Shown here: positions 36,582 through 40,861 of the stretch, piece by piece
Layout: each line of letters opens with the position of its first letter
Numbering within the stretch: position 1 is the first letter of the stretch
Origin: Elusimicrobiota bacterium
GTDB taxonomy: Bacteria > Elusimicrobiota > UBA8919
Assembly (NCBI GenBank): GCA_028718185.1
Contig: JAQUMH010000002.1
Span: forward strand, 130,088-194,087
Direction of reading: 5' to 3'
Length of the DNA: 64,000 nucleotides
Translations under genes and position numbers: made by a program
Notes under the pieces: generated by a model
Database searches by the model: none
Seen by the model: the letters and a program-made list of their open reading frames with translations, nothing else
What the model was told of the DNA's origin: nothing

Positions 36582-37108
36582 TTATCAACACTACTTGCCA
36601 GATGCTCGTTTGATTATATTATTTTATGGTTACATTCCTAAATGATTTGACAAGGGGCTATTTGTATATATTATTGTGCAATTATCGATATAATTAATTA
36701 ACAACTATTTATTTATTATCCCGATTTTTATTTACGAAATTTGTTATCGGGATTGTGTTCTCGGTCGTTTCAGTAGAGCCGACCTCCGAGCACTAACCCG
36801 ATTTTTATTTATAGAATTTGTTATCAAGATTGTGTTTCTCTTGATACTGCGGGATCATGTTCTCATCCGGTGCAAGTGCTCCGAGCTGCGTGTGTTAATT
36901 TTACTAAACTGCAATTATTCTGTCAATGACCTAATGCCACTTTTTTATGACTTTTTTCCACTGCGAGAAATTAAGTCCAGAATATTTACTTCGCCACATC
37001 TATTGATTCCCGATAGGAACACACGGAAATGACATATTACTTTGATAATGCAAAGAAGCTTGGCAACTACAATTGTTTGACATGTGGATAAGGATTTTTT
37101 TAATGGTC
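36582..37108. other. Gene-free region with degenerate repeats and a plus-strand promoter-like site
   Basis: A 527-base gap. TTGACA-16-TATTAT on the plus strand (36647-36674) looks like a promoter pointing right. At about 36718-36895 two related segments share CCCGATTTTTATTTA, GAATTTGTTATC and GCTCGG/CCGAGC motifs that can pair (CCCGAT/ATCGGG and CTCGG/CCGAG). No open frame of note follows. A small RNA is possible, but I cannot name one. Confidence 0.5.
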
Positions 37109-37858: not shown

Positions 37859-37897
37859 TTTTTTATTTCACTGCTCTTCGCTGAAAAGGTACATATG

Positions 37898-38004
37898 GCA
37901 CGCCGAGGGCGTGCAACTACAATTATTACAGCATATAAAGCACGCCGAGGGTGTACAACTACAACTATTACAGCACATAAAGCACGCCTAGGGCGTGCGA
38001 CTAC
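37898..38004 (-). repeat. Array of three REP-like hairpins between glnP and glnQ
   Basis: Three copies (37898-37920, 37940-37962, 37982-38004) at an exact 42-base period. Each reads on the minus strand as GTAG plus two bases, then a hairpin with arms GCACGCC and GGCGTGC. Copy 2 has two changes that weaken the stem. The GTAG tetranucleotide at the base of the hairpin is the hallmark of REP elements recognised by RAYT transposases. The array lies within the presumed transporter transcript. Confidence 0.8.
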
Positions 38005-38054: not shown

Positions 38055-38720
38055 TTATTTCACTATTTTGTATTTCTTTTCTATTAAAGATACTACTTTT
38101 GTTAAAATCACTACCATGGCAAGGTATACCATTCCAACCATAAACCAGGTTTCAAAATCAACAAAATATTGTGTATAGAATTCCCTGCCTGCCCTGGTAA
38201 GTTCTCTTAAACCAATTATTGAAACCAGGGAACTATCTTTCAGGCAAGCGATAAATTCATTTGCTACCGGAGGTATAACTACTCGAAATGCTTGCGGGAG
38301 TACCACATATCTCATTGTCTGGATAGCATTCATACCCAGTGATTTACACGCATCATATTGCCCTTTAGGTATTGCTTCTATTCCGGACCTGAATATTTCG
38401 CCTAAATATGCGCTATAACATATGCTTATTGCAATAATACCGGCAGGAAATTGAGAAAGATTAAATAATTTGCCAAGCCCAAAATATATAAAAAATATCT
38501 GAACTAAAAGCGGTATTCCACGAATCATATCAATATACGCCATCGCTGTCTTTCTAAGTAAGGGACTGTGAGACGTCCTTACCAGCGCGATAATGATTCC
38601 CAAAATAACCGCTATTAAAAAGGATAATATCGTTATCTTTAATGTTATCGGGACAACAGGTAAGAGAAATTTTAATATTTTCCAATATATTGCAAATTCT
38701 CTTACAAAAAAATTTATCAT
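38055..38720 (-). CDS. glnP: Polar amino-acid ABC transporter permease
   Basis: A 221-residue inner-membrane permease of the HisMQ family. It has an N-terminal helix, the conserved MIRGIPLLVQIFF segment and the EAA-type coupling loop (EAIPKGQYDACKSLGMN). About five transmembrane helices are expected. The start overlaps the glnH stop by four bases (ATGA). Confidence 0.93.
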   Translation of the reverse strand: MINFFVREFAIYWKILKFLLPVVPITLKITILSFLIAVILGIIIALVRTSHSPLLRKTAMAYIDMIRGIPLLVQIFFIYFGLGKLFNLSQFPAGIIAISICYSAYLGEIFRSGIEAIPKGQYDACKSLGMNAIQTMRYVVLPQAFRVVIPPVANEFIACLKDSSLVSIIGLRELTRAGREFYTQYFVDFETWFMVGMVYLAMVVILTKVVSLIEKKYKIVK

Positions 38721-39511
38721 TTACCACCTATTTGCCACTTGATTTCAAGTTTTTTTAAATCACCTGTTTTCTCAAGTTTAGCTATTGCGGAATTTACTTT
38801 ATCAAGCAGTTCTTTATTATCTTTTCTTATAGCTATACCATAATATTCTTTTGTAAGTAATTTACCTACAGTTTTAAATTTACCGGGTCTTGTAATAATT
38901 ATCGACTTGTTTGTAGGCACATCATTTATTATAGCGTCAAGTTTTTTATTTTCTAAATCTAAAAACGCGGCGCTTATATTATCAAAGCTTACAACTTTAG
39001 CATTTTTTATTTTTTTTGCTTCCATTTCACCTGTGGTTCCTAACTGGACACCTATCCGTTTACCAACTAGTCCTTCCAACCCCTTAATATTTTGTTCGTC
39101 TTTACTAACTGCTATTGACTGACCGGCTAAATAATATGGTTTTGAAAAACTAACTTCTTTTGCCCGGTCTTCAGTTATTGTCATTGCGGAAATCACAGCA
39201 TCATACTTTCTCTGTTTTAACCCGGAAATAATCCCGTCAAACGGAACAACAATAAATTGCGGTTCTTTACCTATTTCTTTGGCTATCGCTGTCATTAAGT
39301 CAATATCAAACCCGACTACCTTGCCTTCACCGGCTACTGTCTCGAATGGCGGGTATGTTGCGTCGGTACCTATTTTAAGTACTTTAGTATTTTCAACCGA
39401 GCAGGCAGTTAAGATAACTACAAGCAGGAAAGAAAATAAATTAAGCGTTTTGGTGCAGATACTTTTCCCTTGGGATTTCCTGGGACACTTACGGGTTTGA
39501 TTCAAAAACAT
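38717..39511 (-). CDS. glnH: Amino-acid ABC transporter substrate-binding lipoprotein
   Basis: About 264 residues from the ATG 39511 (behind GAGGGAGGAACAA). A lipobox LTAC gives a lipidated Cys at about residue 37. The SBP type 3 features are clear: LKIGTDATYPPFE, VGFDIDLMTAIAKEIG, AVISAMTITEDRAKEVSFSKPYY and a GVQLGTTGE hinge. The true ligand could be glutamine, another polar amino acid or a related compound. The leader contains the AAGATT-word palindrome at 39545-39628. Confidence 0.92.
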   Translation of the reverse strand: MFLNQTRKCPRKSQGKSICTKTLNLFSFLLVVILTACSVENTKVLKIGTDATYPPFETVAGEGKVVGFDIDLMTAIAKEIGKEPQFIVVPFDGIISGLKQRKYDAVISAMTITEDRAKEVSFSKPYYLAGQSIAVSKDEQNIKGLEGLVGKRIGVQLGTTGEMEAKKIKNAKVVSFDNISAAFLDLENKKLDAIINDVPTNKSIIITRPGKFKTVGKLLTKEYYGIAIRKDNKELLDKVNSAIAKLEKTGDLKKLEIKWQIGGK

Positions 39512-39544
39512 TTGTTCCTCCCTCTTCATTAAATAACAAGAAAC

Positions 39545-39628
39545 CAAATGCAAGATGTAAGATTCAAGAAGTAAGATTAGATTCTAACTATAAAATACCT
39601 TGTTCAACCTTAATCTTAAATCTAGAAT
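39545..39628. repeat. AAGATT-word palindrome upstream of glnH
   Basis: Tandem words of the type CAAGATG, TAAGATT, CAAGAAG run to the centre TTAGATTCTAA, followed by complementary words (TTAATCTT, AAATCTA). Closely related palindromes lie upstream of the phosphofructokinase gene (50325-50425) and the SDR gene (51309-51412). Confidence 0.7.
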
Positions 39629-39650
39629 ATTCAGTAATTAATTTCAAATA

Positions 39651-39860
39651 TGCAAAGCAAGCTTTGCAACTACTTTTTATACTTCTGATTGCCAAGGGCA
39701 ATCTACTACGTTATATTCATACCATCGGGTGGGCAAGCCCACCCCTACAATATCTTTATATCTGCAAAGCGAGCTTTGCAACTACTTCATATACTTCTGA
39801 TTGCCAAGGGCAATCTACTACGTTACATTCATACCATCGGGTGGGCAAGCCCACCCCTAC
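39651..39860 (-). repeat. Duplicated triple REP-like hairpin array
   Basis: A 112-base unit occurs twice. Each unit carries three different hairpins, at 39651/39763, 39687/39799 and 39727/39839, with stems TGCAAAGC/GCTTTGCA, GATTGCC/GGCAATC and GGGTGGGC/GCCCACCC. All end in CTAC on the plus strand, so read on the minus strand each is GTAG followed by a hairpin. Stems differ completely while the GTAG foot is constant. It begins 14 bases after the nagA-like stop. Confidence 0.85.
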
Positions 39861-39874
39861 GTGTAATTATATAA

Positions 39875-40786
39875 TTAATTCAAACCTATTAGTTTAAGAG
39901 GGTTGTGGTAACATAGACATAACAGTTCTTTTTCTGTAAATTCACCTGTGCTCCTGAGATACTTTATACATTGAGTTATGGTTTTAGAAGAACCGCATAA
40001 TGTATTACTGTCGAAAGAATGAATTGAACCGTCTTTTTTCAGTATAACATTATTTCCTGATGTTTTATATTTACCTACAGGCAGACCGGCAATCGGTGCC
40101 TGGTCGCTGATACATATACAATTATCAATACCTTTTGCCTTGATTAACGTCTTTATAAAAGACAGCGGCAGGTGGTTCCCGTCGCCAATAAACATCGCAG
40201 TAAGTTTGTCTTCGGACATTTGGTCCCAGATTTGGTTGGGATGTCTTGGAAGCATTGCAGGTATACCGTTACCAAGATGAGTACAGGCAGTAGCTCCAGC
40301 TTTAACCGCTAATTGGATTTCTTTTGTTGTCGCTAAATGATGACCCAGCGAAATGACGCAATTATATTTCTTTTTTATATATTCAATCATTTTGGGTGTA
40401 TTCTTGCCTTCAGGAGCGATTGTAAGAATGGATATTTTATTTTCACATAAACCAAACAACCAATCGACATCATTTTTATTAATTGGTCTGACATACTTTT
40501 TATTATGCGCTCCTACAGCACCGTCTTTTTTTGAAATAAAGGGCCCTTCAAGGTGAAAACCGGGAATATGTCTTTTATATTTCTTTTCCTTCATCACTTT
40601 CAATATAATAGGTATGTTCTTCTCATATATATCAGGAGAATTAGTTATAATAGTAGGTAAAAATATCTCAGTGCCGATTGAAACCATTTCATCAATTGTT
40701 TTTCTAAAATTTTCTATTGTAAGGGCATCTGATGAATAATCTATTCCTTTATAACCGCCTAACTGAAGATCAACATAGCCTTTCAT
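39875..40786 (-). CDS. N-acetylglucosamine-6-phosphate deacetylase-like amidohydrolase
   Basis: A 303-residue NagA-family protein. It keeps PGFHLEGPFIS and GAH, the metal-binding SLGHHLAT, the THLGNGIP segment (THxFN-like) and the catalytic aspartate region CISDQAPIAGLP. It lacks the N-terminal beta-sandwich and most of the HG-rich strand, beginning at MKGYVDLQLGG, so it is about 80 residues shorter than standard NagA. The substrate could be GlcNAc-6-P or another acetylated sugar phosphate. The start follows AAAAGGAGAGGG. Confidence 0.78.
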   Translation of the reverse strand: MKGYVDLQLGGYKGIDYSSDALTIENFRKTIDEMVSIGTEIFLPTIITNSPDIYEKNIPIILKVMKEKKYKRHIPGFHLEGPFISKKDGAVGAHNKKYVRPINKNDVDWLFGLCENKISILTIAPEGKNTPKMIEYIKKKYNCVISLGHHLATTKEIQLAVKAGATACTHLGNGIPAMLPRHPNQIWDQMSEDKLTAMFIGDGNHLPLSFIKTLIKAKGIDNCICISDQAPIAGLPVGKYKTSGNNVILKKDGSIHSFDSNTLCGSSKTITQCIKYLRSTGEFTEKELLCLCYHNPLKLIGLN

Positions 40787-40832: not shown

Positions 40833-40861
40833 ATCCGCCAACGCTTTAGTGGCGGATCTAC
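40833..40861 (-). repeat. REP-like hairpin that supplies a stop codon
   Basis: On the minus strand GTAG (40861-40858) is followed by arms ATCCGCCA and TGGCGGAT around a nine-base loop. The TAG of the GTAG foot is the stop codon of the cyclophilin-like gene. The stem is related to the 34-base repeats inside pyrK and the copy at 60892-60916. Confidence 0.8.

Follow-up and report, generated by a model that had tools for sequence, protein, structure and literature searches.

The window is a 64,000-nucleotide stretch of an Elusimicrobiota genome. At positions 39650-39860, on the minus strand, we found six perfect hairpins with a GTAG foot, flanked on one side by the 5' end of a solute-binding-protein gene (SBP_bac_3; 38717-39553) and on the other by the 3' end of a gene (39875-40786) that weakly matches Amidohydro_1 and whose homologues in relatives are only 25-30% identical. 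The arms are exactly complementary in all six, as the preliminary description of this DNA had proposed. The hairpins represent three unrelated stem types (TGCAAAGC, GATTGCC and GGGTGGGC), arranged as a three-hairpin block that is present twice with a spacing of 112 nt. This duplication had been described as exact; the two copies and their spacing are confirmed, but the copies are 93% identical over 106 nt, which rules out exact duplication. They differ in the spacers and in one loop base, with zero differences in the stems. A search of the hairpin region against Rfam returned zero family matches. The elements of the window are as follows.

37896..37920, minus strand: REP, GTAGTT and stem GCACGCC, loop CTC; array unit 1
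37940..37962, minus strand: GCACGCC REP, decayed middle unit with two pairs altered (one G-T, one A-C)
37981..38004, minus strand: REP, GTAGTC and stem GCACGCC, loop CTA; array unit 3
39643..39748, no strand assigned: three-hairpin REP block, copy 1; 93% identity to copy 2, 112 nt spacing
39650..39673, minus strand: REP, GTAGT and stem TGCAAAGC, loop TT
39686..39709, minus strand: REP, GTAGTA and stem GATTGCC, loop CTT; DNA fold z -5.5
39727..39748, minus strand: REP, GTAG and stem GGGTGGGC, loop TT; type shared with hairpins within and next to the RAYT gene at G000:C3:178163
39755..39860, no strand assigned: three-hairpin REP block, copy 2; 93% identity to copy 1
39762..39785, minus strand: REP, GTAGT and stem TGCAAAGC, loop TC
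39798..39821, minus strand: REP, GTAGTA and stem GATTGCC, loop CTT
39839..39860, minus strand: REP, GTAG and stem GGGTGGGC, loop TT
40833..40861, minus strand: separate long-loop hairpin, GTAG and ATCCGCCA ... TGGCGGAT; CCGCCA..TGGCGG family

The array at 37896-38004 lies between the permease and ATPase genes of the transporter. The preliminary description had counted 37898-38004 among the varied stems; the array does consist of GTAG REPs, but of the single stem type GCACGCC, repeated as 3 x 42 bp with a decayed middle unit. Likewise, of the five stem types said to share GTAG within 3 kb, four are of one kind and the fifth, at 40833-40861, is of another. We rejected the latter as a relative of the block REPs, since it belongs to a CCGCCA...TGGCGG element with a loop of about 9, present in 19 copies in our genome sample (window included), of which 6 have GTAG nearby. 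In this family and its variants, CCGCCA(CTGAACCGT)TGGCGG, the loop is conserved and GTAG stands near one end in about a third. A further GTAG hairpin with one mismatch, perhaps a decayed REP, lies at 37049-37070, downstream of the ABC ATPase gene.

The block is not one dispersed composite element: a search with 223 bases spanning it found only partial matches elsewhere, the best of which were two-hairpin units or single hairpins. Two such units, at 693 and 695 kb of contig C1, are homologous to the second and third hairpins of the window, and one A-T to G-C double change (GGGTGAGC to GGGTGGGC) separates them from the window in the stem of the third. A similar C1 two-hairpin unit next to an amidohydrolase paralogue might have pointed to a conserved link with the gene, but we attribute it to chance, as the unit is found at the opposite gene end.

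GTAG-footed hairpins in the genome sample

The genome comprises 3.03 Mb in 27 contigs, and hairpins were counted in a sample of 850 kb (about 28%). This sample contains 131 perfect hairpins with a GTAG foot, and GTAG is the commonest foot among its GC-rich hairpins. A perfect GC-rich stem of at least 7 bp begins 0-2 nt after 126 of 3768 GTAG occurrences, compared to 0-1 in second-order Markov sequence. Nine control feet yielded 0-13 hairpins, the 13 belonging to TAGG, which overlaps GTAGG. Thus, GTAG is far commoner at such stems than expected, contrary to the outcome that the preliminary description had named as its refutation. Pairing was also assessed at GTAG-YY-N7-CT[TC]-N7 sites, a pattern in which only the foot and loop are specified and either arm may have any sequence, so that sites are not chosen by pairing. 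With this pattern, 40 of 68 sites were paired at 7/7 and carried several different stems, whereas with the foot GATG none of 40 sites exceeded 4/7.

The stems of the 131 elements fall into 32 seven-base cores, of which 17 occur at least twice. The commonest loops were CTT (44), TT (32), CTC (12), GAA (7) and GTTA (7). Among 49 neighbouring pairs within 150 bp, 3 shared a stem and 46 did not, where random draws predict 7.7% same; these pairs thus show no preference for like or unlike neighbour stems. Such diversity and random neighbourhoods, together with compensated changes between homologous units like that separating the C1:693-695 kb units from the window, would also suit a single RAYT that recognises shape plus GTAG, with one family exploring stem space and all stems serving as substrates of one enzyme. 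Consistent with such a scheme, stem sequence is weakly important for group 3 TnpA_REP (PMC8266576).

As many as 120 of the 131 hairpins lie outside reading frames, many of them between co-directional genes, and only 11 fall in ORF proxies, even though these proxies cover 88% of the sequence; 7 of the 11 are in RAYT frames. The nearest neighbour is a gene 5' end in 65 cases and a 3' end in 50. Mixed REP clusters also occur outside the window: at L131 (1501-1664 and 2495-2553), GCTTGCC and GCAAACC stems are combined in two tandem 105-nt blocks with a further copy about 0.9 kb away, an arrangement resembling the duplication in the window.

RAYT genes and their internal hairpins

A matching transposase, which the preliminary description had proposed to look for, is encoded in the genome. 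Of its seven Y1 HuH transposase (Y1_Tnp) genes, five (L003-L007) form a RAYT/TnpA_REP set, and the solved structure closest to the profile of these five is that of E. coli TnpA_REP (4er8). The best family for all seven is NCBIfam REP_Tyr_transpos (NF047646; cut-off 80), with 90.7 bits for L003 and 66-79 for the other six. L003 carries the motifs NHIH, WQ and YIRNNP and L005 carries NHIH, WQ and YIQNNP, while L006 departs from this pattern (DHIH, YIENHP). All five RAYTs contain GTAG hairpins within their reading frames, and the stem/loop sets differ among the five.

This association extends beyond the genome. Across 80 RAYT loci from many phyla, the density of GTAG hairpins falls from 1.47/kb inside the gene to 1.10/kb within 400 bp and 0.08/kb far from it, and a control foot gave 0, 0 and 1 hits, respectively. 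A perfect GTAG hairpin is held by 59 of 108 RAYT frames, a fraction that describes loci found with a profile of hairpin-bearing RAYTs rather than a survey of all RAYTs. Moreover, GTAG hairpins depend on the presence of RAYTs: seven relatives with RAYT hits have 25 in 304 kb, some inside RAYT genes, whereas ten relatives without RAYT-profile hits have 1 in 350 kb.

In the RAYT tree, L003, L004, L005 and L007 form one supported clade with Elusimicrobia relatives, and L006 stands apart; L156, from a relative (G005) in the family of the window genome, is identical in the tree to L048 of Elusimicrobia bacterium RIFOXYD2_FULL_34_15, a kinship that would put the window genome in Elusimicrobiota. Mapped on this tree, the gap changes 2 times (9-13 after shuffling), the loop 38 times (47-55) and the stem 43 times (52-59), an association that could partly be explained by common descent of the loci. 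In the sample, 76 of the 131 elements (58%), spread over all five RAYTs, lie within distance 2 of a hairpin of the genome's own RAYTs, compared to a mean of 48 and a maximum of 59 upon loop shuffling. The other 55 may descend from lost or diverged RAYTs, or the class boundaries may have been set too tightly. Copies of the abundant GCACGCC-CTT type are absent from the genome's own RAYT genes, and the type is seen near one of them only about 260-320 bp beyond it (L003). In the window, GGGTGGGC matches the hairpin type of L006, and TGCAAAGC-TT and GATTGCC-CTT are, by resemblance only, nearest to other RAYT sets. That loop and gap classes track RAYT clades, that each of the five diverged RAYTs has a stem/loop set of its own and that the match to RAYT hairpins drops when loops are shuffled argue against a single enzyme acting on every stem, and we consider that explanation improbable. 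Recognition of shape plus GTAG, one of the two possibilities raised initially, is thus partly right inside a family, where both arms change.

Origin of the mixed stems

The second possibility, several families gathering at one spot, is the best supported, with five distinct RAYT sets, window stems nearest to different sets and random neighbours. We therefore consider it probable (roughly 0.87) that the window hairpins are GTAG-superfamily REPs of several co-resident families, spread by several RAYTs of the genome, with compensated stem drift within each family. The REPs would be non-autonomous, and REP-associated HuH tyrosine transposases (RAYT/TnpA_REP) with genes at other sites of the genome would recognise and spread them as single strands made up of GTAG, a gap of 0-2 nt, a stem of 7-9 bp and a loop of 2-4 nt. 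Because at least five such RAYTs coexist, each with its own loop/stem class, several REP families would gather next to one another in shared intergenic gaps, in this case the gap between the ABC-transporter operon and the upstream amidohydrolase-like gene. Stems of one family would diverge through changes in both partners of a base pair, since pairing would matter more than the sequence of the stem. Local tandem duplication of REP clusters probably gave rise to both the 112-bp block and the 42-bp array. These RAYTs would recognise, cleave and mobilise the REPs, which might also affect neighbouring mRNA. That the hairpins are instead RNA-level elements under selection (transcription terminators, stabilisers of mRNA 3' ends or binding sites for proteins, GTAG being contacted by a protein on the RNA) is very improbable, since this idea, which suits their position outside reading frames and between co-directional genes and the ability of REPs to affect mRNA elsewhere (PMC3733652), leaves the in-gene RAYT copies and the dependence on RAYT presence unexplained and sits poorly with the lack of Rfam matches and the excess of neighbouring 5' ends.

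The combination of an unvarying GTAG foot and stems that change is real, but it is how a known REP class is built, and the central idea is already covered by published work. That an ordinary REP family holds to a single stem, as initially assumed, is an outdated view. GTAG families differing in stem and loop, several per genome, with dimers of unlike elements and intragenic copies, have been described (Di Nocera 2013, PMC3733652). One published definition of REPs is GT[AG]G together with a palindrome whose composition varies, in many classes each tied to a RAYT (Nunvar 2013, PMC3686654), and REPs occur in frame inside subclass 2.4 tnpA_REP genes (Quentin 2018, PMC6006769). For perfect-palindrome REPs, stem sequence is less important than the loop base and GTAG (Corneloup 2021, PMC8266576). 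No new principle of recognition is required to explain why one locus has mixed stems, because several families and their likely RAYTs share the genome.

The window REPs have the structure of the GTAG superfamily, with GTAG (or GTGG) 0-2 nt 5' of a stem of at least 7 paired bases and a loop of 2-5 nt, and they occur in many, mainly extragenic copies associated with RAYT genes (131 in 850 kb). The superfamily (PMC3733652), to which the SMAG repeats of Stenotrophomonas belong, shares with our elements the terminal GTAG, a variable stem of 6-9 bp and, in many families, a loop of 2-3 nt; in both, one genome has several families, stems form compensated subtypes, unlike elements are joined as dimers and some copies are intragenic. 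However, Elusimicrobiota is absent from the phyla named in the text consulted, and stem diversity here is high by comparison (17 cores with at least two copies in 850 kb). The REP classes of fluorescent pseudomonads and stenotrophomonads (PMC3686654) are likewise many per group and each RAYT-tied, and one of them, GTAGAGTCGAGC-TT-GCTCGACT, has nearly the same design as here; they differ in phylum and were reported as almost exclusively intergenic. Similar to the REPtrons of TnpA_REP subclass 2.4 (PMC6006769), RAYTs here such as L003 and L005 have the motifs NHIH, WQ and YIxNNP, within the subclass pattern NH[IFV]H, WQ, YIxNNP, and REPs lie in frame inside RAYT genes and also beside them. Unlike in subclass 2.4, the main clade of this genome has GTAG, a 1-2 nt gap and a short stem rather than a long stem directly based on GGG, and in-gene hairpins here also precede the HuH motif; three G-C pairs next to GTAG, as in the long REPs of that subclass, were found only for L006/L152 and most far loci. 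Group 3 TnpA_REP (PMC8266576) shares the perfect short palindrome, small loop and GTAG foot and offers a candidate recognition mode tolerant of stem change, but its loop and RAYT sequences are different.

What is new is an Elusimicrobiota set of REPs whose short stems follow GTAG after a gap of 1-2 nt, along with the preference for a sense-antisense doublet in RAYT genes. The GTAG REP/RAYT system is thereby extended to an Elusimicrobiota genome, which offers a clear case of several REP families with their likely RAYTs; its five RAYT/REP sets form a natural panel for asking whether foot, gap, loop or stem determines the specificity of a RAYT. Successive in-gene hairpins are sense then antisense in 26 of 33 pairs (L003-L007, L048-L174), and one reading phase dominates per orientation. 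We tentatively suggest, with the odds against it, that an inverted REP doublet is retained within the coding sequence of RAYT genes in this group and that both arms of its stem are replaced while the RAYTs diverge. The doublet would give the gene a cis copy of its own substrate, as a source of new REP families or an autoregulatory site. If so, REP families could arise through stem turnover inside the transposase gene. The recurrence of sense-antisense REPs in RAYT genes, with stems differing between paralogues, may be of interest to specialists.

As a separate observation, the RAYT frame L155 (G000:C6:40957-41421) has one in-frame TAG in its longer match, possibly derived from a GTAG foot.
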